From Streptosporangiaceae bacterium (GTDB taxonomy: Bacteria; Actinomycetota; Actinomycetes; Streptosporangiales; Streptosporangiaceae): a stretch of 13,435 bases of DNA. Shown here one piece after another: positions 1-12,844 of the stretch; positions within the stretch are counted from its first letter, which is position 1; each line of letters begins with the position of its first letter. The position numbers and the translations under genes are program-made. The notes beneath the pieces were generated by a model that saw nothing but the letters and a program-made list of their open reading frames with translations, ran no database searches and was not told the origin of the DNA. The stretch lies in the NCBI GenBank assembly GCA_030039095.1, contig JASHQP010000100.1, positions 1 through 13,435 of the forward strand. Reading direction: 5' to 3'.

Positions 1-2
1 CC

Positions 3-296
3 ACCGTCTCCGCTGCCTTGGACGAGTGCGTGGGCGCCTGGCAGGAGCCGCTTGGCCGTGACCAACCGCTGCAACAGGGGGACACCTACTCAGTAGCCGG
101 GAACGGAGGACATCGCTCCAGGCATGCAGAACCAATTTTCTGTTCGATAAGGAGAAGCCCAGTTCTGGTGGGAGCCAAAGTGGGAGCCAACGTGCACAGC
201 CACCAGGCGACGTGGGGCGACATCCAGCCAGCATTACCGCAGATGAAGCCCACATCGGGCGACGTGGAGCTACATGGAGCGACCAGATGGAGCTGA
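3..296 (+). other. Open frame from the left edge, unassigned (possible 3' end of a gene)
   Basis: This frame is open from the window edge to a TGA at 294-296, which lies one base before the tRNA-Pro core. Its start would be upstream of the window, or at the ATG at 18. The translation (begins TVSAALDECVGAW, later VLVGAKVGANVHSHQ) matches no family I recognise. The second half is simply the att arm region read through: GAKVGANVH recurs in the second att copy because the DNA is homologous. It could be the tail of a gene of the neighbouring element or non-coding. The region 1-166 shows no other feature that I can support. Confidence 0.15.
168..189 (+). repeat. Att copy 1, upstream arm repeats (2 x GTGGGAGCCA, 12-bp period)
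   Basis: GTGGGAGCCA occurs at 168-177 and again at 180-189. The pair lies 107 bp before the tRNA-Pro core, the same distance as in the second att copy. Paired short direct repeats flanking an att core are the usual arrangement of integrase arm-type binding sites; that role is inferred. Confidence 0.6.
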
Positions 297-344
297 TTTG
301 GGAGCAGGAGGCCGCGGGTTCGAATCCCGCCATCCCGACCATTT
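297..344 (+). other. Att core, copy 1: 3' half of tRNA-Pro(UGG)
   Basis: The sequence from TTTGGGA can be read as anticodon loop (TGG anticodon), then anticodon stem GCAGG, a T-arm GCGGG-TTCGAAT-CCCGC, acceptor strand CATCCCG, discriminator A and encoded CCA. The 5' half is absent: the bases before it (GGAGCTGAT) cannot supply CCTGC for the anticodon stem, and there is no D-arm or CGGGATG acceptor strand. It is therefore not a tRNA gene but the segment that a tyrosine integrase carries in its att site, starting at the anticodon loop where crossover is common. The same 48 bases recur at 7254-7301. Confidence 0.75.
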
Positions 345-364
345 TTCGAATATGCGATCTACTG

Positions 365-386
365 GTGGGAGCCAACCTGGTAGCCA
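365..386 (+). repeat. Att copy 1, downstream arm repeats (12-bp period)
   Basis: GTGGGAGCCA at 365-374 is followed at the same 12-bp period by the variant CTGGTAGCCA at 377-386, 20 bp after the tRNA-Pro core. With the upstream pair this puts arm sites on both sides of the core. The next ~170 bp (387-559) hold no gene or further repeat that I can support. Confidence 0.55.
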
Positions 387-559
387 GTTGTTGTAGCTCG
401 AGGTCGGCTGAACATCACCGCTCACCAGTCACGCCTGCCCGCATTGGTGTCTCGTCGCGAGAAAGCGCTGAATGACGGAGGGGTCCGTTAGGACGTGTGC
501 CGAGCCGCCCTTTCGCGTGACCGTTTGCCATGGTCTGCCGGTCATGGGTGCTGATCGGG

Positions 560-913
560 TCAGGCTGCTTCGGTGCCGGGTTCGATGAAGGCGAGCCGCT
601 GGTCGCCGAAGTCGGCGATGATCTCCAAGCGGCCGCCGAGGGCTTCGACGTAGGTGGCCAGGGTGCGCAGTTCGGTGGTGCCTGGCTTGGCGTGCTCGAT
701 GGCGGATACGCGACCTTGGGTGATCCCCATCCGGGCAGCGACTTGGGCCTGAGTGATACCGAGGCGGCGGCGCATCTCGGCGAGCCGGAAGGCGCGCTGC
801 TCAGCGCGCAGTTGCTTCATCCCGGCGGCGATGGCGTCCTTGTCAGCAGGGTCGGGATAGAACTCGGTGAAGAACTCATCGCGGGAGTAGTGGTGAAACT
901 CGCTGCGGCTCAT
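560..913 (-). CDS. XRE-family antitoxin of a HigBA/RelE-type toxin-antitoxin pair
   Basis: This is a 117-residue protein starting MSRSEFHHYSRDEF. The frame stays open upstream, but this ATG overlaps the toxin stop as ATGA (910-913), which decides the start. Residues ~45-95 form a helix-turn-helix: QLRAEQRAFRLAEMRRRLGI, then TQAQVAARMGITQGRVSAIE, typical of Cro/C1-type domains with the recognition helix around QGRVSAIEH. The C-terminus (LATYVEALGGRLEIIADFGD) is the usual tail of antitoxins paired with phage-Gp49/HigB toxins. In such systems the antitoxin neutralises the toxin by direct binding and represses the operon. The toxin-first order fits HigBA-like modules. A short relic of a homologous gene lies at 7358-7397. 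Confidence 0.85.
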   Translation of the reverse strand: MSRSEFHHYSRDEFFTEFYPDPADKDAIAAGMKQLRAEQRAFRLAEMRRRLGITQAQVAARMGITQGRVSAIEHAKPGTTELRTLATYVEALGGRLEIIADFGDQRLAFIEPGTEAA

Positions 914-1335
914 CGGATGTCCTCTTGTTTCAGGTAGTCCTCGTAACGCTGCTCGGCCAGTGGGATCGCCTGCCGGTACCAGGCCTCCCATTTGCCAGCT
1001 TTATCTCCGGCTGCCAGCAGGACCGCATTTCGCCGGGGGTCGAAGATATACAGGATGCGGATCTCGCTGCGTCCCGCGGAGCCCGGCCGCAATTCCTTCA
1101 GGTTGCTCAGCCGGGAGTGGTGGATGCGGTCCGCGAGCGGGCGGCCCAGTTCCGGTCCGGCTTCGAGCAGCAAGCCGATGGCCTGGCCGACCTGGATGGC
1201 GCTGGCCCGGTCACGCTTGCGCAAGTCGTGCAGCCATGCCCGGCCAGCCGCGCGACAACAGCAACCGGTGTTGCCCGAGGCGACCTCCTTGTGCTGCCGA
1301 TCCTCGGCCGTCCAGTTGCATCCAGTCCAGGCCAT
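910..1335 (-). CDS. RelE/HigB-type toxin (phage-derived Gp49-like family)
   Basis: The C-terminal ~85 residues are clearly of the Gp49-like/HigB family: ELGRPLADRIHHSRLSNLKE, then LRPGSAGRSEIRILYIFDPR, then LLAAGDKAGKWEAWY. Members are ribosome-dependent mRNA endonucleases; the basic and Arg residues in the RPGS..GRSE-R segment belong to the conserved core. The start is uncertain. ATG at 1335 lies 40 bp after the HAD gene with only a weak AGAGG, and the first ~30 residues (with an odd CCC run) align poorly with the family, so some N-terminal decay or a frameshift is possible. A good AAGGAGG further inside has no in-frame start at the right distance. The stop overlaps the antitoxin ATG. Confidence 0.75.
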   Translation of the reverse strand: MAWTGCNWTAEDRQHKEVASGNTGCCCRAAGRAWLHDLRKRDRASAIQVGQAIGLLLEAGPELGRPLADRIHHSRLSNLKELRPGSAGRSEIRILYIFDPRRNAVLLAAGDKAGKWEAWYRQAIPLAEQRYEDYLKQEDIR

Positions 1336-1375
1336 TGATGCTGGAGCGACCTCTTGGCGAGCGCTGCCAGTGGCG

Positions 1376-2095
1376 CTACCTGGCTTCTGCGGCTTGGGCT
1401 CGCGCACCCAGCCACTCTTTGAGCGCCCCGGTGACGTCGCCCACGTCATCGGGGCCCATCTTCCAGCGGATGGCAGTGCCACCGCAGGAACTAAAGGCGG
1501 TGCAATTGTCGGCGCGGTCGTCTATGAGCGCGGCGTCGGCGAAACCCATTCCGTTAGTGGCCAGCCATGGCCCGAAGAATGCTTGTGGGTCCTCGCCTTT
1601 GAGCGCGGCGACGTGACTGGAGCAGATCAGGTCGTCACAGATGACCGCCCAGTCAGCCAGGGTCTCGCGCTCGCGGGCCGGGCTGCGCCTGCGCCGTTGC
1701 GCTTGGTCGAATGCGCGGGCGAAGCAGTCCATGTTGTCGGTGGCGATCACGACCATCGCCTCGGCCCTCATCAGGCGCAGCAGCTCGAACAATTCAGCGT
1801 TGACGCGCATCCGGGCGCAGTCGAGGTCTAAGCGGCGGGCCAGGAAGTCGTCGCGGAACCGCCGGTCGAGCTGGATCCCCATCTCATCGATGATCTGGCC
1901 GGAGGACAGCAGGCCCTTCATCCACTCGTTGGCTAGGCCCTTTTCGCTGTTGAATACCCCGGCCATGCCGACTTCGAGTCTGGCGTGCAGCGGATGGGTA
2001 GCACTGCCGCGGATAGAGACCCAGAACGGGTCACGGGACAGCACGCCATGCCAGTCACAGAAGATCACTCGGTCCCACAGCGGCATCTGTTTCAT
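1376..2095 (-). CDS. HAD-superfamily phosphatase-like protein
   Basis: A 239-residue protein carrying all four HAD motifs: motif I VIFCDWHGVLS (nucleophile D14, with H16 where most members have Asp), motif II VVIATDN (T119), motif III lysine K166 (AALKGEDP), and motif IV ALIDDRADN (D192, D193). The insertion between motifs I and II is long and helical, as in a C1-capped HAD. A phosphatase or phosphotransferase acting on a small molecule is likely; the substrate is unknown. Its ATG overlaps the stop of the upstream small gene as ATGA (2092-2095), so translation is probably coupled. It lies 40 bp upstream of the toxin gene on the same strand. A DxHG motif I is less usual than DxDG, but the nucleophile is kept. 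Confidence 0.8.
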   Translation of the reverse strand: MKQMPLWDRVIFCDWHGVLSRDPFWVSIRGSATHPLHARLEVGMAGVFNSEKGLANEWMKGLLSSGQIIDEMGIQLDRRFRDDFLARRLDLDCARMRVNAELFELLRLMRAEAMVVIATDNMDCFARAFDQAQRRRRSPARERETLADWAVICDDLICSSHVAALKGEDPQAFFGPWLATNGMGFADAALIDDRADNCTAFSSCGGTAIRWKMGPDDVGDVTGALKEWLGARAQAAEAR

Positions 2096-2382
2096 GCGGT
2101 TCCCCGGATAGGGCGGTGCGTCACCAGAGGTCGCAGCCGCGTCCTGGTCAGCTGTGCCAGTTCTGCTGGGTCCAGCGTGGCATCAAGCCAAGCGACGCGT
2201 GACGGTTCCAGGCCGGCGAGTCTCAGGAAGTAGGAGCGGACGGCGGTGTTGAAGGTGGGATCGATGTAGATGCTGGCATACAGCGCTATAGCGCCGACGG
2301 CGGGCAGTCGGCTCATCGCCGGGCAGGCGTTCGTGACGGGCGCCCGCACCGCCGCTGGCCCGGCTGCGCTGTTTGTTTCCAC
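2092..2382 (-). CDS. Small hypothetical protein, first gene of the HAD/toxin-antitoxin run
   Basis: Up to 96 residues if translation starts at GTG 2382, or 74 from the ATG at 2316; neither has a strong Shine-Dalgarno site. I recognise no family. The part after residue 23 looks like a folded domain: AIALYASIYIDPTFNTAVRS, then RLAGLEPSRVAWLDATLDPA, then AQLTRTRLRPLV, with alternating hydrophobic residues and no cysteine. The stop overlaps the HAD start as ATGA, which supports real translation. The gene is divergent from the XRE-TPR regulator, so the 100-170 bp between them should hold promoters for both directions. It may be a truncated member of a longer family. Confidence 0.5.
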   Translation of the reverse strand: METNSAAGPAAVRAPVTNACPAMSRLPAVGAIALYASIYIDPTFNTAVRSYFLRLAGLEPSRVAWLDATLDPAELAQLTRTRLRPLVTHRPIRGTA

Positions 2383-2418
2383 TTGGGCAGGATGGCATCG
2401 TCAGCCAGAGTTGGCGGA

Positions 2419-2449
2419 GGGCCACCACAGGGGCCACGATGGGGGCCAC
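2419..2449 (+). repeat. Three GGGCCAC direct repeats, 12-bp period, upstream of the XRE-TPR gene
   Basis: GGGCCAC occurs at 2419-2425, 2431-2437 and 2443-2449, exactly one helical turn plus about 1.5 bp apart, in the intergenic region between the small minus-strand gene and the regulator start at 2484. The third unit in context (TGGGGGCCA) differs by one base from TGGGAGCCA of the att arms, which have the same period. It may be an operator for one of the XRE proteins or a cryptic integrase/accessory-protein site; both are inferred. Confidence 0.5.
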
Positions 2450-2483
2450 AGCCGATTTCGCTGAGGGCGACGAGGAGCCGTGT

Positions 2484-3731
2484 ATGGGTGACTGGTGGCT
2501 AACGGAGGAGACGGTCGGCGAGTTAATCGTGCGGGTGCGCGAGCACGTCGGTAAATCCCAGTACGCTCTGGCGGCGGCGCTACGCGAGGTGTCTGGGCGC
2601 AGCGACGGAGTACCTGACCGCAGCATGGTCGCTCGCTGGGAGACAGGGCGGCGGATCCCCACCCCGTACTGGCGCGCTCATCTTGCAGCCGTCTTACAAA
2701 TCCCTCCTGCGGAACTCGACAAGGCCGCCGCCGTCACCAGAGCACGGCGGGCAGATCAGACGGATGATCCGGAGCATGCCCAGCCGCTGCAGCCGGAGCG
2801 ACTGCGGTACGTTCTGGCACATCCTCGCGGCGTCGACCTGGTGACCGTGGCTCACTTGCGGGAGCAGGTCCGCAGTCTTGATGAGCGATACGACCGTGTC
2901 CCTTCGACACTGCTGATTCCCGAGGCGGCGCAGTGCCTAGGCCAGGTCGTCTTCCTGCGCATGCATGTGAGGCGGCCGTACGTGCGCCATGAGCTGCACG
3001 AGGCCGAGGCTGAGGCGGCGACGTTGATGGGTCAGCTGGTCTGGGACGCCTCGCAGCGGCGCGATCATGACACGGCAGTCGGCTATTTCGAGCAGGCGAT
3101 CGACGCAGCCCGTGAGCGCGGCAACAACGCCGCTGAAGGGCTGGCAGCGCTGCGTAAGAGTTTCGTCGCCCTGTATGGCTGGCGAGATCCGAAGGCAGGG
3201 CTCGCGCTCACCGAACGCACCGCCCACATCACCGCGACCACCAGCAAAGTCATTACAGGACTGGCGGTGCTCCACACTGCCGAGGCGCACGCCATGCTCG
3301 GTGAGCGGCGTGAATGCGAGCAGGCACTCGGAGACGCTGAAGCGCACTTCGGCCAGATTCAGCCCGGTGATCCGGCCATTGACCTGTTCTCTCCTGCGCA
3401 GCCTGGCCGGCTCGCGGGATCGTGCTACCTGTTCCTGGGCGACGCCAAGGCTGCTGTGAGCCTTCTGGAAGAGACGGCCCAGGCCCTCCAGGAGCGTCAT
3501 TCGAAGCCGCATGCGCTGGTCCTCGGCAACCTCGCCCTTGCCTACATCAGCCAGGGCGCCCTCGACGCAGCTGTGGCCAGCCTGCACCTCGCTATCGACG
3601 TGACCGAAGTCAGCCGGGGCGGCGGGGGCCTGAATGTCATCTTCACCGCGGGCCGCCAACTGCGGCGCTGGCGGCAGAACTCCGGCGTCCAGGACGTGTA
3701 CGACCGGATCATGGCCCTGATGGCGGCATAG
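2484..3731 (+). CDS. XRE-type HTH transcriptional regulator with C-terminal TPR domain
   Basis: A 415-residue protein. The start at 2484 is set by GAGGAG six bases upstream; the frame is open further 5' but without a ribosome site. Residues ~10-80 form an HTH (VGELIVRVREHVGKSQYALA, then SMVARWETGRRIPTPYWRAH). Residues ~150-410 are helical TPR-like repeats: QLVWDASQRRDHDTAVGYFE, AEAHAMLGERRECEQALGDA, YLFLGDAKAAVSLLEE, LALAYISQGALDAAVASLHL. This large actinobacterial family is often called a tetratricopeptide transcriptional regulator; XRE-TPR proteins of the RRNPP type bind peptides, but no ligand is known here. It is divergent from the HAD run and 11 bp upstream of the cyclo-ligase-like gene, so probably co-transcribed with it. 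Confidence 0.85.
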   Translation: MGDWWLTEETVGELIVRVREHVGKSQYALAAALREVSGRSDGVPDRSMVARWETGRRIPTPYWRAHLAAVLQIPPAELDKAAAVTRARRADQTDDPEHAQPLQPERLRYVLAHPRGVDLVTVAHLREQVRSLDERYDRVPSTLLIPEAAQCLGQVVFLRMHVRRPYVRHELHEAEAEAATLMGQLVWDASQRRDHDTAVGYFEQAIDAARERGNNAAEGLAALRKSFVALYGWRDPKAGLALTERTAHITATTSKVITGLAVLHTAEAHAMLGERRECEQALGDAEAHFGQIQPGDPAIDLFSPAQPGRLAGSCYLFLGDAKAAVSLLEETAQALQERHSKPHALVLGNLALAYISQGALDAAVASLHLAIDVTEVSRGGGGLNVIFTAGRQLRRWRQNSGVQDVYDRIMALMAA

Positions 3732-3742
3732 GGCGGTTGCCG

Positions 3743-4471
3743 GTGGGCGCGGGAATCGACGAAGCCAAGCAAGCGCTCCGCACGCAGGTGTGGGATCTGC
3801 TGGAACGCGAGCACGCCGTTGACCGCGGCGTGCACGGCCACATTCCTGCCTTCACCGGAGCCGACGCGGCGGCCATCCGGCTTGCGGGCCTGGCTGCGTG
3901 GCGTGCCGCCCACGTCGTCAAGGCAGTCCCGGACCGGGCACAGCTTCCCGTCCGAGAGCGAGCGCTGCGCGACGGCAAGCTGCTCTACATGGCTGTCCCT
4001 ATGCTCGCTGAGGACTGCCCGTTCTATGTTCTTGACCCAGGCACCCTGACGGTGCCGCCGCCGGTGGCCGCATCCCGCGAAGGAGCCGCCAGGGTTGCCC
4101 AGAGGACCGGTGTTGACCAGATGCGGCCGGTTGACATGGTGGTCTGCGGCAGCGTCGCGGTCAACCGGGACGGCGCCCGGCTGGGCAAGGGCGCCGGTTA
4201 CTCAGATATCGAGGTTGCCCTGCTGCAAGAGGCCGGGCTGATCGGCCCCACCACGCTGATCGTCACGACCGTCCACCGCCTGCAAGTCGTCGACGAAGCA
4301 ATTCCGGAGAGCGAGCACGACTTCAGCGTTGACCTGGTCGTCACAGCAGACGAAGTGATCGAGTGCGGCCCGCCGAGGCGACCGCACGGCCTGTACTGGG
4401 AACAACTGACCCCCACGAAGATCGCCGCCATACCCGTCCTGGCCAGCAGGGCAGCCTCGAACCAGAACTGA
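3743..4471 (+). CDS. MTHFSD-like 5-formyltetrahydrofolate cyclo-ligase family protein
   Basis: About 242 residues from GTG 3743, eleven bases after the regulator stop, with a weak GGGCGG upstream. The N-terminus has the KxxLR signature (EAKQALRTQVW). The nucleotide/substrate loop reads RLGKGAGYSDIEVALL (G148 region), and LIVTTVHRLQVVDEAIPESE is followed by HDFSVDLVVTADEVIECGPP and RPHGLYWEQL. These C-terminal motifs match the MTHFSD-like branch (GKGxGYADLE type) rather than classical MTHFS (GxGGGYYDR). Classical enzymes convert 5-formyl-THF to 5,10-methenyl-THF with ATP; for this branch the substrate is uncertain. Coupling to a TPR regulator recurs in streptomycetes to my knowledge, but its role is unclear. 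Confidence 0.8.
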   Translation: MGAGIDEAKQALRTQVWDLLEREHAVDRGVHGHIPAFTGADAAAIRLAGLAAWRAAHVVKAVPDRAQLPVRERALRDGKLLYMAVPMLAEDCPFYVLDPGTLTVPPPVAASREGAARVAQRTGVDQMRPVDMVVCGSVAVNRDGARLGKGAGYSDIEVALLQEAGLIGPTTLIVTTVHRLQVVDEAIPESEHDFSVDLVVTADEVIECGPPRRPHGLYWEQLTPTKIAAIPVLASRAASNQN

Positions 4472-4528
4472 ATCCCTCGCCTCTGCAGGTTTCTGAACTG
4501 GCCGCTCGCCTTCCCCTCTTGGGCCGGG

Positions 4529-4918
4529 TTACGCGGCTCGGTTGGCGGTCAGGTCGATGCTCTCGGCGATCAGGCGCAGGTGCTCCCTGGGGAACCGGTG
4601 TCCGTGGCGGCGCAACTGCCGGGCCAGAGTTTGCTGGCTGAGCCGCTCACCGCGTGCGGCGGCATAGCGGTATAGCGCGCTGGCATCACGCAGCACTCCC
4701 GGGCGCGGGCCCGAAGAGCTGCGATGCCGCAGCGGCTCCGCTGGCCAGCGCAGATACGTGGTGGTGGTGTTGCCGTTCGCCTCAGTGGAGCGGGCGGTGC
4801 CAGTGATGGTGGGCGACGGGGCGAGCATAAGGGCCGGCACGATGCGCGGTTCCTCGGCGCGCGCGTGGGTGTGCTGGCGAGTCATCTTCAGTACGAGCAG
4901 GCCGACGCTCAGCCTGGC
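4529..4918 (-). pseudogene. C-terminal fragment of an unidentified protein joined to the integrase relic
   Basis: The frame ends with TAA at 4529-4531. Its last ~55 codons have the strong GC3 bias of a real gene (YRYAAARGERLSQQTLARQL, then RRHGHRFPREHLRLIAESID). This looks like a short basic winged-helix or helical tail of the kind found at the end of actinomycete plasmid/transfer proteins, but I cannot name the family. Upstream, the same frame passes through a low-complexity linker (TITGTARSTEANGNTTTTYL) and then, near 4919, into integrase-like sequence. No start of its own is apparent. It is best read as the surviving 3' end of a gene fused by deletion to the integrase remnant. Confidence 0.45.
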
Positions 4919-5535
4919 GAAGGCGTCGGCCGGGATGTGCCCGTCGGATTCTCTGCCGCGCGGGGTGCGAGGGTCGTCCTTGCCTGCTGCCCGGCGGGTC
5001 CGGAGCGTGGTAGCTGAACAGCAGGTCATCAGGCCCCAGCCGGCGAGCGTTGACGAGAGCCATGATCTCGGCGGTGACCTGAGCGCTGAGCTTGAACCTC
5101 CGGTACTCCTCGTCCTTCGGGTAGCCCTTGACGAGAAACCGGCCTCCGGATGGGTGCTCGTCAGGGGGGACCTCAACCACGGCGCGACTGACGGTCAGGA
5201 TCCGCGTCGCAGGGTCCAGATCCCGGACCCGCAACTCCGTCAACTCGCCCCAGCGCGGACCTTTCGATATCAGTCTCGATCAGTAGCTGAGCGTCCGCGT
5301 TCGGCAAGGCTTTGTAGAGAAGTTCGAACTCGGCAGCAGTGATCCTTGTGTCTTCATTCTGGTGACCCACTGACGGACCTGCTCGGGCATGATGTCACGC
5401 ATCTTCATTGGCCCGAAGAAACGGCAGCAGGTGCTTGCGTATCTGCCTCCGGTACTCGCCTCGCACGCCGGGCTCCAGTTGATGATTCGGCAGCCACTTG
5501 TCGAGGACGTACGCTTCGAAGGTCTGCCGCCCCGG
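4919..5535 (-). pseudogene. Tyrosine site-specific integrase, frameshifted and internally deleted
   Basis: Four blocks in changing frames line up in order with one actinobacterial tyrosine integrase. (1) 5535-5395: TFEAYVLDKWLPNHQLEPGV then RGEYRRQIRKHLLPFL, the N-terminal SAM-like domain, ending in TGA. (2) ~5412-5350, shifted: MKMRDIMPEQVRQWVTRMKT. (3) ~5352-5258, shifted: RITAAEFELLYKALPNADAQ, LLIETDIE. (4) ~5257-4990, shifted: RWGELTELRVRDLDPATRIL, SGGRFLVKGYPKDEEYRRFK, LGPDDLLFSYH; then ~4996-4919 in yet another frame: RRAAGKDDPRTPRG...DGHIP. About 50 residues normally between blocks 2 and 3, ~30 residues before RRAAGKD, and everything from the HxxR box to the catalytic Tyr are missing. 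It cannot be functional. A TAG at 5536-5538 blocks the frame upstream. Confidence 0.75.
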
Positions 5536-5631
5536 CTAGGGTCACCTCCTCGACGAGCGCCACCTGCGCTAGGTCCTGACCGAGTAGCTGGTGCACTACA
5601 ACACCACCCGGCCCTCTCTACGGGCTGCCAT

Positions 5632-6912
5632 TTAAGCTGGCCCGCCAGCTGCGTCGGGACCGAGTGTCCACAGGGCTGAGATTGGCCAGGCGCGGAGCCG
5701 TTCTCCGAAAGGGAGCGCCTGGCCGCCGGCGTATAGGACGATTCCGGCCGTTAGGCGGTCGCCGAGTCGCCTGGCGATTCGCTGGATGCCGCGGAAGTCA
5801 CCGGATCGGACTGTTTCCGCAGCCTTGACTTCGCAGGCGATGACTTCGCCTGACGGTGCCTCGAGCACCGCATCTACCTCGTAGTGGTCTCGGTCGCGAT
5901 AGTGATAGAGCCGTACGGGCTCATCGGCGAGGGAGAGCTGGCGGGTGAGTTCGCCGAGTACGAAGGTCTCTATCAGCGGGCCGACGGGGGCGGTGGGCTG
6001 CCGGGCGCGCCGCAGGCTCATTCCGGTGAGATGGGCTGCGAGCCCGGAGTCGGTCAGGAGCAGTTTTGGCGTGGCGACTGCCCTGGTGGCGAGGTTGCTG
6101 GACCAGGCGGGGATGCGGCGGGTGACGAACAGCAGGTCGAGCAGGTCCAGGTAACGCTTAACCGTGCTGGCCGGGACTTGCAGGCGGCTGGCCATGGACG
6201 CCGGGACGGCGAGCGAGCCGGTCGAGGCAGCGACCAGGTTCACGAGGCGGCGCATGTCGGCGGGACGCTCGATGTCGGTGAGCTGCCGGACGTCGCGGTT
6301 GACCAGATCTGAAATATAGGACTCGAAGAAGCGGGCCCGGCGGCCGGTGTCGGTGCGGCGGACCGCCTCTGGGTAACCGCCGCGCAATGCCCGCTCGAGA
6401 TAGTCGTCACGTCGCAGGTCCGAGGCTGGTACGCGGAGGGCGACGCCGTGCCGGAGGACGGCGGCGACGAAGCCGTCAGGGCGGCGGTCTATCTCGCCCT
6501 GGGACAGGGGGGAGAGCTCGATGGTTTCCGACCTGCCGGGCAACAGGTCGGGGATATCGCGTAGCCCGGTGAGCCGGGCCGATCCAGTGAGCAAGAAACG
6601 GCCGGGTCGCGGATCGGTGTCGGCCTCGTGCTTGATGGCAAGGAACAGATCGGGCGCGCGCTGCACCTCGTCGATGACGAGGAGGCCGCTGTGGCGGACG
6701 AAGAAGGCCGGGTCTGCCAGCGCGGCCGCGCGGACCGGTGCCTCATCGAGAAAGCGCAACTCAGAACCGGGGAAATCTGCCATAACCAGCCGGGCAAGGG
6801 TGCTCTTGCCTGTCTGCCGCGCTCCGTTGATGACTACCACGCGGGTGTCGGACAGGGCGGCGGTGACAGCCGTCTGCGCATGACGAGGGATGAGGCCAGT
6901 TGGAGGCTGCAT
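5632..6912 (-). CDS. AAA-family ATPase with DUF4143 domain
   Basis: A 426-residue protein. Walker A is GARQTGKST (30-38), Walker B LLVIDE (77-82), and the sensor strand LLTGSAR (107-113), characteristic of the AAA_14 ATPase domain. The C-terminal DUF4143 domain contains LLFVTRRIPAWSSNLATRAV, TPKLLLTDSGLAAHLTGMSL and a PD-(D/E)xK-like segment EVDAVLEAPSGEVIACEVKA (345-364; D347, E361, K363). Such proteins are widespread in accessory regions; their function is mostly unknown. The gene is intact and full length, unlike the adjacent integrase. The start is ATG 6912; there is no Shine-Dalgarno site, but TAGACT (6924-6919) lies 6 bases before the ATG, suggesting a leaderless mRNA. A 6-bp hairpin (5635-5650) overlaps the last codons. 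Confidence 0.9.
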   Translation of the reverse strand: MQPPTGLIPRHAQTAVTAALSDTRVVVINGARQTGKSTLARLVMADFPGSELRFLDEAPVRAAALADPAFFVRHSGLLVIDEVQRAPDLFLAIKHEADTDPRPGRFLLTGSARLTGLRDIPDLLPGRSETIELSPLSQGEIDRRPDGFVAAVLRHGVALRVPASDLRRDDYLERALRGGYPEAVRRTDTGRRARFFESYISDLVNRDVRQLTDIERPADMRRLVNLVAASTGSLAVPASMASRLQVPASTVKRYLDLLDLLFVTRRIPAWSSNLATRAVATPKLLLTDSGLAAHLTGMSLRRARQPTAPVGPLIETFVLGELTRQLSLADEPVRLYHYRDRDHYEVDAVLEAPSGEVIACEVKAAETVRSGDFRGIQRIARRLGDRLTAGIVLYAGGQALPFGERLRAWPISALWTLGPDAAGGPA

Positions 6913-6918
6913 TCTGGC

Positions 6919-6971
6919 AGTCTACTTTGCATGTGGTTGATCTGCCGAGAGCTAGATGGTTGATCTGCCGA
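6919..6971 (-). promoter_or_regulatory. Putative leaderless promoter and tandem operator of the DUF4143 ATPase gene
   Basis: On the minus strand the -10-like TAGACT (6924-6919) is followed by six bases and then the ATG. Upstream are two exact copies of TCGGCAGATCAACCA (plus-strand positions 6934-6948 and 6957-6971), 23 bp apart; the nearer one covers the -35 region. No good TTGACA is present. Position and exact repetition suggest a binding site for a regulator; which one is unknown. Confidence 0.4.
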
Positions 6972-7124
6972 ATAAGTTGTGGTCACGTCGCCGACAGGTG
7001 CATGGCCGGTCCGCCACGCTTCTGACGCTACCGACCAGTGCCCTGGCCCGTCCGCCTGACTTTCTGCGACGGCTTGTTCACGGCCGTCTGCACGCCTATC
7101 AGCAATGCGGAAACGCTGGCCGAG

Positions 7125-7146
7125 GCGGGAGCCAAAGTGGGAGCCA
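7125..7146 (+). repeat. Att copy 2, upstream arm repeats (12-bp period)
   Basis: GCGGGAGCCA at 7125-7134 and GTGGGAGCCA at 7137-7146, again 107 bp before the core. The 129 bp from here to the core align without gaps to 168-296. The preceding 150 bp (6972-7124) hold no gene that I can support. Confidence 0.6.
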
Positions 7147-7253
7147 ACGTTCACAGACACCAGGCCAGGTCGGGCGATATCCAGCGAGCATCGTCCCAGT
7201 TAAACGCCACGCCAGGCGACGCCGAGCTATTGCTGGCGACCGGTTGGAGTTTG

Positions 7254-7301
7254 TTTGGGAGCAGGAGGCCGCGGGTTCGAATCCCGCCATCCCGACCATT
7301 T
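7254..7301 (+). other. Att core, copy 2: 3' half of tRNA-Pro(UGG)
   Basis: The 48 bases are identical to 297-344, from TTTGGGA through the T-arm and CATCCCGA to CCA plus TTT. The sequence before it (GGAGTTTG) again cannot form the tRNA 5' half, so this is a second att core and not a gene. Identity is complete within the core while the surrounding arms have diverged, as expected if the core is kept matched to the chromosomal tRNA by recombination. Confidence 0.75.
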
Positions 7302-7319
7302 CAAATATATCATCGACAG

Positions 7320-7341
7320 GTGGGAGCCATTCTGGTAGTCA
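7320..7341 (+). repeat. Att copy 2, downstream arm repeats (12-bp period)
   Basis: GTGGGAGCCA at 7320-7329 and CTGGTAGTCA at 7332-7341, 18 bp after the core, matching copy 1 in order, spacing and variant second unit. Similarity to copy 1 continues to about 7352. Confidence 0.55.
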
Positions 7342-7357
7342 GTTGCTGTTGCGCGAT

Positions 7358-7397
7358 GGCTTGGCGTGCTCGATGGCGGACGCGCGGCCCTGGTGAT
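7358..7397 (-). pseudogene. ~40-bp relic of an XRE antitoxin gene
   Basis: Bases 7358-7380 are identical to 684-706 inside the antitoxin gene, and similarity continues with substitutions and a 1-base deletion to 7397. On the minus strand the fragment would encode the recognition-helix segment (GRVSAIEHAKP in the intact gene). Nothing else of the gene is present: upstream is the att arm, downstream the LLM oxidoreductase begins at 7427. It marks a deletion joint at the right end of the element. Confidence 0.6.
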
Positions 7398-11764: not shown

Positions 11765-12844
11765 GTGTCAGCTGTGTCGAGCACAACAAGCGGGGTTGTC
11801 CATCAGCGAGGGCAGATCGGATCAGGGCTGCAGCCCGGCTGGGGTGTCACGCCCGAGCGTCAGCAGGTGGTCGCTGAGGTGCTCGACGGCCTGGTCCCGC
11901 AGACTGGGCGCCTTACGCCCGCTCAGCTGCGTGCTGTCACATCCGGCCTGGCGGCTCGCCGTAGCCTGTGGGCGGACCTGGTCGTCAGGGACCCGGACGT
12001 GCGCTGGTATCTGCCCTTGCACCGGTCCAACTCCTGCGATGTCTGGCTGCTGGCCTGGGAGCGCGGCCAGGACACCGACTGGCATGACCATGGCGGATCG
12101 TCGGGGTCGTTCGCCGTGGCCGAGGGCTGCCTGCTCGAGCAGTACCGGACCCCGGACGGACGGCGGATCGCCCGCAGGAGCCTGCAGGCGAGCCAGGCGG
12201 TGGCGTTCGGTCCGGCACATGTCCATGATGTCGCGCACGATGGCAGCGGGCCCGCGACCAGCATTCATGCTTACTCGCCGCCGCTGATGGCGATGACGTA
12301 CTACACCGCCACCGATTACGGTCTGATTGCGAGAGAGACCGCCGCAGTCGACGGGCCGGAGGGCGCGCTGGGCCGCGGCGGCTCCGGCACCGCGCTCGCC
12401 ACCGCCTCGGCGTCGGCGGCGAGGCTGACGTCCGAATCGCTGCCGACCGACGCACCGAGCATTGACGAGCTGCTGGCCGAGGCCCGTAGCGGCCTGGCCC
12501 GGCTGCGCCCGGAAGCGGCGTTCGCGGTCCTCACCGACGGAGCCGTCCTGGTCGACATCCGGCCCCTCGAGCAGCGGATGGCCGAGGGGGAGGTCCCAGG
12601 GGCGATCGTGATCGGCCGCAATGTGCTGGAATGGCGGCTCGACCCGCGCAGCGAGGCGCGCATTCCCGCGCTCGCCCGGCCCGAAGCGCAGATCATCGTC
12701 ATGTGCTCCGAGGGCTACGCCTCCACCCTTGCCGCAGCCACGCTACGGCGGATTGGCCTGCGCCAGGCGACCGATCTTGATGGCGGCTTCCGGGCATGGA
12801 AGGCAGTCGGCCTGCCGACGCGCCCGGCCCAGCCGCCCAGCTGA
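11765..12844 (+). CDS. Cysteine dioxygenase-like cupin fused to a rhodanese domain
   Basis: A 359-residue two-domain protein. The start is taken as GTG 11765 (GGGAGG just upstream, spacing short; GTG 11774 is an alternative). Residues ~40-190 form a cysteine dioxygenase-type cupin with iron ligands H107 and H109 in DTDWHDHGGSSGSFAV, and the third His probably H154 in AHVHDVAHDG, followed by SIHAYSPPL. Residues ~230-355 form a rhodanese domain with catalytic C314 in MCSEGYAS and the ending DLDGGFRAWKAVGLPT. Cysteine dioxygenase oxidises cysteine to its sulfinate; rhodaneses carry persulfide sulfur. A Ser/Ala-rich linker (190-230) joins them. The fusion suggests thiol or persulfide breakdown in the cytoplasm, though the true substrate is not shown. 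Confidence 0.85.
   Translation: MSAVSSTTSGVVHQRGQIGSGLQPGWGVTPERQQVVAEVLDGLVPQTGRLTPAQLRAVTSGLAARRSLWADLVVRDPDVRWYLPLHRSNSCDVWLLAWERGQDTDWHDHGGSSGSFAVAEGCLLEQYRTPDGRRIARRSLQASQAVAFGPAHVHDVAHDGSGPATSIHAYSPPLMAMTYYTATDYGLIARETAAVDGPEGALGRGGSGTALATASASAARLTSESLPTDAPSIDELLAEARSGLARLRPEAAFAVLTDGAVLVDIRPLEQRMAEGEVPGAIVIGRNVLEWRLDPRSEARIPALARPEAQIIVMCSEGYASTLAAATLRRIGLRQATDLDGGFRAWKAVGLPTRPAQPPS

Follow-up and report, generated by a model that had tools for sequence, protein, structure and literature searches.

The stretch of DNA considered here, positions 1-13,435 of contig JASHQP010000100.1 of a Streptosporangiaceae bacterium (assembly GCA_030039095.1), is referred to as the window. It carries two full attachment-type (att) sites, each made of an upstream arm (P), a core and a downstream arm (P'), set in the same orientation 6,957 bp apart and enclosing a unit of 7 kb (Table 1). 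The core is the 3' half of a tRNA-Pro(UGG) gene, from the anticodon loop through CCA, plus TTT; as is to be expected of 3' halves, ARAGORN reports no complete tRNA in the window. Its 48 bases are repeated without a change and the next base outside differs at both ends, which confirms, to the base and in orientation, what a sequence-only reading of this DNA had claimed. A local alignment of 167-401 with 7124-7356 scored 140, the best of 300 letter shuffles reaching 17.

The arms are repeats with a 12-bp period. Upstream, site 1 has GTGGGAGCCA at 168 and 180, and site 2 has GCGGGAGCCA at 7125 and GTGGGAGCCA at 7137, the second repeat standing 107 bases from the core in both. Downstream, an exact GTGGGAGCCA is found at 365 (site 1) and 7320 (site 2), 20 and 18 bases past the core; a further 12 bp on, each is followed by a degenerate copy (CTGGTAGCCA at 377, CTGGTAGTCA at 7332). 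The matching distances that the sequence-only reading had announced are thus as measured; the arm repeats that it placed on both sides are two good copies upstream, while downstream one is good and the other degenerate. Allowing one mismatch, GTGGGAGCCA matches the window six times, always in an arm, a count equalled in 1 of 200 shuffles. Antisense open frames run across the tRNA 3' half at 1-375 (-) and 7099-7299 (-) and contain 'GMAGFEPAASCSQ'; frames of this kind may have been annotated as proteins in databases, and may then be usable for spotting att cores.

Table 1. Annotated features of the window, in order of position.
Positions	Strand	Feature	Basis
168..189	+	P-side arm repeats, site 1, 2 x 12 bp, GTGGGAGCCAAA	
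190..296	+	Remaining P region, site 1; family-wide GC[GC]A[CT] motifs mostly on a 10-bp phase	
297..344	+	Site 1 core, tRNA-Pro(UGG) 3' half	
365..386	+	P'-side arm, site 1: one exact and one degenerate repeat	
560..919	-	Helix-turn-helix (HTH) protein (HTH_3/HTH_37), antitoxin candidate, left end of the 7-kb unit	Pfam
910..1341	-	Gp49/DUF891 protein, toxin candidate, start codon uncertain	Pfam
1376..2095	-	Cargo open reading frame (ORF), no Pfam match	
2475..3731	+	Cargo XRE/TPR regulator	
3743..4471	+	Cargo 5-formyltetrahydrofolate (5-FTHF) cyclo-ligase-like gene, start inferred	
4782..5568	-	Tyrosine integrase relic, no Pfam match	
5632..6912	-	AAA_14/DUF4143 ATPase gene, beside site 2	
7125..7146	+	P-side arm repeats, site 2	
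7147..7253	+	Remaining P region, site 2	
7254..7301	+	Site 2 core, same as 297-344	
7320..7341	+	P'-side arm, site 2: one exact and one degenerate repeat	
7357..7393	+	37-base HTH-gene remnant of a putative third element, abutting the P' arm	

The same arms in related genomes

The comparison set comprised 341 genomes of the GTDB family of Microbispora hainanensis (G001; G numbers stand for genomes, L numbers for loci). A first arm pattern gave no match over the genome contigs. The two-repeat arm, with at most two mismatches, occurs at 22 places in 15 of the 341 genomes, and the reversed control pattern at one place. A DNA search with the left unit matched 19 of 22 genomes chosen from the family, often over the tRNA core alone, and whole contigs or stretches of at most 20 kb were mapped.

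Of the mapped contigs, three (L107, L108, L109) combine a P-arm/core unit with an intact tRNA-Pro(UGG), and in all three the intact gene is on the left, in the orientation of the core, with a core-to-core gap of 2.3-5.0 kb. The prediction of the sequence-only reading, an intact tRNA-Pro gene farther left, is thus borne out in these relatives. P arm and core stand 2.3 kb past the gene in G056 (L109) and 2.5 kb past it in G058 (L107). In G059 (L108) a tRNA-Pro/tRNA-Gly pair is followed, 5.0 kb on from core to core, by P arm, core and P' arm, a full junction which implies that a second element begins there; at the contig edge after the P' arm lies a short match to an integrase N-terminus (25 aa, 52%). 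Integrase-family genes lie downstream of P' arms at L106, L111, L113 and L117. In L106 (G058) tRNA-Pro directly precedes the P' arms and then the gene; L111 (G052) has the 3' part of tRNA-Pro, the P' arms and the gene; L117 repeats this arrangement with tRNA-Ala(GGC); the C-terminal part of its product matches PF00589 (3.8e-24). The L106 product is 58% identical to that of L117 over 104 aa, and the gene pieces of L106 and L111 match Phage_int_M below the cut-off only. Common genes, differently spaced, lie upstream of tRNA-Pro in L109 and L106, which are probably one locus. In nine other genomes the mapped stretch (L153-L155, L157-L162) holds tRNA-Pro(UGG) with no arm match, L154 extending only 384 bases past the tRNA; in L153 and L157-L162 a divergent tRNA-Gly(UCC) stands within about 260 bases of it.

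The P region is also found before tRNA-Arg and tRNA-Ala cores, partial cores having been assigned by eye. The arm adjoins integrase-like matches in L170 and L172, the latter beside tRNA-Arg(ACG). Twin P-core units in the same orientation occur at tRNA-Arg cores in three genomes. Those of G052 are 975 bp apart; those of G336, separated by 6.0 kb, both have a P'-side arm, which stands farther from the core than in the window; those of G339, 2,975 bp apart and alike at 172 of 202 positions, are followed by integrase-family matches. G241 has a P arm and core at a distance of about 7 kb from an intact tRNA-Arg(ACG), in which the other core copy is found. A strict P-core-P' pattern is found in 4 of the 341 genomes (G059, G234, G241, G339) and its reversed control in none. 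This pattern misses G336, whose P'-side arms lie beyond the allowed core distance, and in G234 and G241 the right-hand GGGAGCC, outside any repeat, may be a chance match. If elements of tRNA-Pro, tRNA-Arg and tRNA-Ala truly use one P arm, then the arm-binding part of target choice separates from the core-binding part.

The P regions of the two window units (win1 at site 1, win2 at site 2) share 76% identity. For win2 the identity is 75% with L107 and 74% with L109; for win1 it is 72% with both L107 and L150. Against all seven Pro-core units of other genomes, a set that includes the truncated cores of L112 and L115 and excludes the degenerate L156 (40%), win2 shows 65-75% identity. The units of L107 and L109, from different genomes, reach 82%, above the window pair. 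Since the window's P regions are hardly more alike than units of different genomes, recent duplication of the two sites looks unlikely. The identity of the cores would be consistent either with the tRNA gene and the sites having exchanged sequence repeatedly or with selection acting on the site.

Within the P regions the motif GC[GC]A[CT] is found 70 times across 20 units, mostly about 40, 50, 60, 82, 92, 102 and 112 bases from the arm start, the complete set being present in no single unit. Pairs exactly 10 bp apart number 25, where 500 shuffles gave a mean of 0.19 and a maximum of 2, a contrast inflated by the homology of the 20 units, which are not independent tests. Such phasing would suit a protein binding cooperatively once per helical turn, as passages of one paper describe for BldC (PMC11963761). 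That the protein is an excisionase is a guess.

A mosaic unit and its right flank

The left end of the 7-kb unit holds an HTH_3/HTH_37 gene and a Gp49/DUF891 gene, presumably HigA-like and HigB-like candidates. The XRE/TPR regulator has homologues of up to 94% identity in public sequence collections, the closest organism-named one, in a Streptosporangiaceae metagenome-assembled genome, being 72% identical among the 120 matches listed; the 5-FTHF cyclo-ligase-like gene adjoins the regulator's relatives too, among the matches listed. The 80 loci of XRE/TPR relatives gave one loose arm-pair match (L012), rejected as not arm-like.

The integrase relic has frameshifts and an internal deletion, and its N-terminal part is gone. 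Similarity to the integrase of L152 (G053) covers 5118-5568, in two blocks at 85-86% between which about 140 bases of L152 are absent; the remainder was assigned by eye. The arm-type integrase found in relatives has no counterpart in the 7-kb unit. The AAA_14/DUF4143 protein has an 85% identical counterpart in G063 (L214), at a contig end which overlaps L156, where the start of the gene, degenerate arms and a tRNA-Pro core stand together. Its relatives occupy 12 loci in 9 of the 22 genomes. L190 is linked to an att unit, since its contig end overlaps L156; L200 is part of the L114 contig; L194 (G053) has a degenerate arm pair at 1764, possibly a further att unit, and L196, L197 and L201 have a TpsiC-like segment; at the other six loci neither arm pair nor TpsiC-like segment was seen. 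HigB-like relatives, at 12 loci in 8 of the 22 genomes, have a TpsiC-like segment once (L206) and no arm match at any of the 12.

Kin of the relic and of the AAA gene stand separately beside tRNA-Pro cores elsewhere, so that the 7-kb unit is assembled from modules. Judging from these likenesses it is a mosaic of at least two element remnants, not one element, and an intermediate core may have been lost at about 5568-5632, where the relic gives way to the AAA gene. Separately, an unnamed gene pair beside the P arm of L115 (10699-11522, G053) recurs beside an AAA/DUF4143 gene in G061 (L215, 6424-7241), with identities of 63% and 83%.

Right of site 2, positions 7357-7393 are 89% identical to 683-719 of the HTH gene (score 27; best of 300 shuffles 15.5), a pattern that would follow if 281 bases ahead of this piece and nearly everything behind it had been deleted from a sister element. 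Beyond 7393 the genes are LLM-type, Lrp/AsnC, EamA, aldo/keto reductase and cysteine dioxygenase (CDO)/rhodanese, with a truncated ORF last. In 21 of the 22 relatives nothing matches the LLM gene at E <= 1e-20, and in the remaining one the best identity is 39%, so that the right flank could belong either to the chromosome or to a different element. The cysteine dioxygenase-like and rhodanese domains are fused in one frame (11765-12844, +), and the truncated ORF at the contig end (13043-13435, -) has a weak DUF6112 match and is transposase-like by eye only.

Probable serial insertion and its rivals

Taken together, the site anatomy, the same anatomy in relatives, the intact tRNA genes on the left and the integrase-family genes beside P' arms, all of them direct observations, make it very probable that the window records the tandem accretion of integrative elements targeted to tRNA-Pro, now decayed and with no working integrase, in the manner of a cis-mobilizable element (CIME). 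A tyrosine integrase would bind the GTGGGAGCCA repeats that flank a core copying the tRNA 3' half. Positions 1-296 would be the right end of one element, 345-7253 the 7-kb middle unit, made of at least two element remnants, and the DNA from 7302 the start of a third element, mostly deleted. Related elements would have been inserted serially at one tRNA-Pro gene and then decayed, and the 6,957-bp stretch might still be excisable by an integrase acting in trans. Three of the features expected of a CIME are present: att sites bound the unit on both sides, its integration genes are lost or broken (a relic only), and the core is the 3' half of a conserved target, tRNA-Pro(UGG), kept intact to the left in three relatives. 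Serial insertion of related elements at one tRNA-Pro gene, as the sequence-only reading proposed, is well supported by the anatomy of the relatives. The same reading spoke of a tandem-inserted element; the stacking of insertions stands, while the 7-kb unit is rather a mosaic lacking an arm-type integrase, and at least three elements appear to contribute.

Several observations sit badly with this account. The window has neither an intact tRNA-Pro (ARAGORN) nor an intact integrase (Pfam scan of the ORFs). Its sole integrase relic resembles the L152 enzyme, whose gene starts about 160 bases from a tRNA-Pro core with no adjoining GTGGGAGCCA arms, and hence the enzyme that used the window's arms is not seen. 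The window's P' arms are 11-13 bp nearer the core than in L106 and L108, and its P' side is without a AGGTCAGAGCC-like stretch such as L106, L117 and further loci have. In L151 the P arm is matched in both orientations, so some neighbouring units are not head-to-tail. Finally, in the P region each window unit has the other as its closest relative, by 1-4 points.

This last point, small as the margin is, would also be expected had a single att region been duplicated by ordinary homologous recombination, with no second insertion. The shared orientation agrees with such an event, as do the like HTH piece after both sites and the P' arms, which are 79% alike and, used as a query, matched the mapped loci over the arm alone. 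The close pair of G339 indicates that the family allows duplication, or else repeated insertion of elements that are nearly identical. However, the P regions are separated by about the distance seen across genomes in spite of identical cores, and left-hand similarity ends at 167/7124, which makes duplication improbable here. Slightly less probable still is an assembly chimera, in which P-core and core-P' ends of different elements were joined at the 48-bp core. The window is apparently a whole assembled contig and the core is the one long stretch identical in both sites; yet two such events would be required in a single contig, other assemblies (L108, L148, L189), themselves draft contigs, show this anatomy too, and the HTH piece at 7357-7393 fits a genuine third element. 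An interspersed repeat unlinked to integration, which P arms with truncated or absent cores (L112, L115, L165, L167) might suggest and which the sequence-only reading had named as the finding that would overturn it, is scarcely credible, being already contradicted by the integrase-family genes after P' arms and by 17 of the 21 aligned P-arm units, which terminate, at about equal distance, in a tRNA TpsiC segment recognisable in the alignment.

Known systems and toxin-antitoxin-like neighbours

Serial accretion at one tRNA-Pro gene, as preferred here, is a known kind of event. Tandem accretion and decay to CIMEs are described in sections of PMC5704250; as in the accretion of CIMEs, integrative and conjugative elements (ICEs) and integrative and mobilizable elements (IMEs) treated there, the window has att-bounded DNA that lost its integration genes, in tandem at one target, as repeated site-specific integration would place it. 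Unlike them, it has no transfer gene among its scanned ORFs, and its P arm recurs with different tRNA cores. For actinomycete ICEs (AICEs), portions of two papers report accretion of complete and defective elements at tRNA-Arg in Streptomyces (PMC9513070) and tandem elements in Frankia and S. avermitilis (PMC3218068). From what these portions say, the likeness lies in an actinobacterial tRNA target, in several elements with different integrases and in remnants without transfer genes. A single AICE combines Rep and Int with an FtsK-like TraB translocase (PMC3218068 in part). A Pfam scan of 9 + 10 window ORFs found no relaxase, TraB or replication gene, leaving the broken integrase relic as the one AICE feature among the 19; the window unit, only 7 kb long, differs from an AICE in this lack of replication and transfer genes.

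Plasmid and phage collections contain no record covering 80% of the att unit; in the 20 records listed of 74 and of 224, the match is confined to the surroundings of the tRNA core and spans no more than 18% of the query. The integrase relic has no match in these collections and no relative in a scan of viral contigs. One viral-contig arm match (L001) was rejected, as it lies inside a coding repeat. Literature text searches, including one with GTGGGAGCC whose 10 listed papers of 187 have titles on other subjects, found no description of this arm among their listings, in a coverage that leaves out most subscription papers. What goes beyond the known, the uniform P arm across tRNA targets and the toxin-antitoxin (TA)-like neighbours, consists of leads. 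The window offers a clean, checkable example of mobile DNA building up layer upon layer at a tRNA gene, from an actinobacterial lineage represented here for the most part by draft contigs. P arm plus core make a search signature for such layers for which no integrase gene is needed.

The tally of TA-like genes covers 18 units in which the P-side DNA extends to 1 kb or more, a count that excludes win1, L112, L163 and L156 (less than 0.4 kb) and L107b (same DNA as L107); ORFs were chosen by eye and the scan covers part of them. PIN-type genes lie within 1.4 kb in 5 of the 18, by Pfam in L108, L150 (just under the curated cut-off) and L148b, and by similarity to L108 in L114b and L166. Three have nucleotidyltransferase-like genes: Pfam identifies that of L107, weak similarity to L107 that of L109, and similarity to L109 that of L114c, an arm pair with no core. 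One unit (L151) has an HTH_3 gene, and nine (win2, L115, L148a, L149, L114a, L116, L164, L165, L167) have no supported TA-like gene among the scanned ORFs. With 195 PIN matches in 13 genomes (about 76.5 Mb), some 0.06 would be expected per 25 kb, against three by profile. The association, noticed after looking, is a lead. Tentative names for the weaker genes include VapC, HEPN, HicA and MntA; NCBIfam and PDB searches on the TA-like genes yielded little.

An integron cassette array consists of attC sites served by an IntI integrase. Chromosomal arrays of this kind share with the units described here small size, a common orientation, recurring recombination sites and TA-like genes in several of the units. 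In place of attC sites, the window has cores consisting of tRNA 3' halves flanked by arm repeats; attC sites and IntI genes were not searched for. We would suggest, as a speculation more doubtful than not, that there is a family of small integrase-less units of about 1-7 kb, all ending in a standard P arm, made of two 12-bp repeats and motifs on a 10-bp helical phase, which is fused to the 3' half of the targeted tRNA and often has a TA-like pair at this end, and that such units are arrayed at tRNA genes by integrases acting in trans. If true, such arrays would be a tRNA-anchored counterpart of integron cassette arrays.

Two gene modules recur beside P arms. A PIN-type gene pair in L108 (429-1165, G059) and L150 (4010-4749, G052) is the same module, with PIN proteins 93.6% identical and differing left neighbours. 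A two-gene module is found in L109 (8228-9564), L114 (7492-8410) and L216 (2046-2975), its first gene 77% identical between L109 and L114; in one genome its neighbour is a Pro-core unit, in another an arm pair located on a contig with an Arg core.

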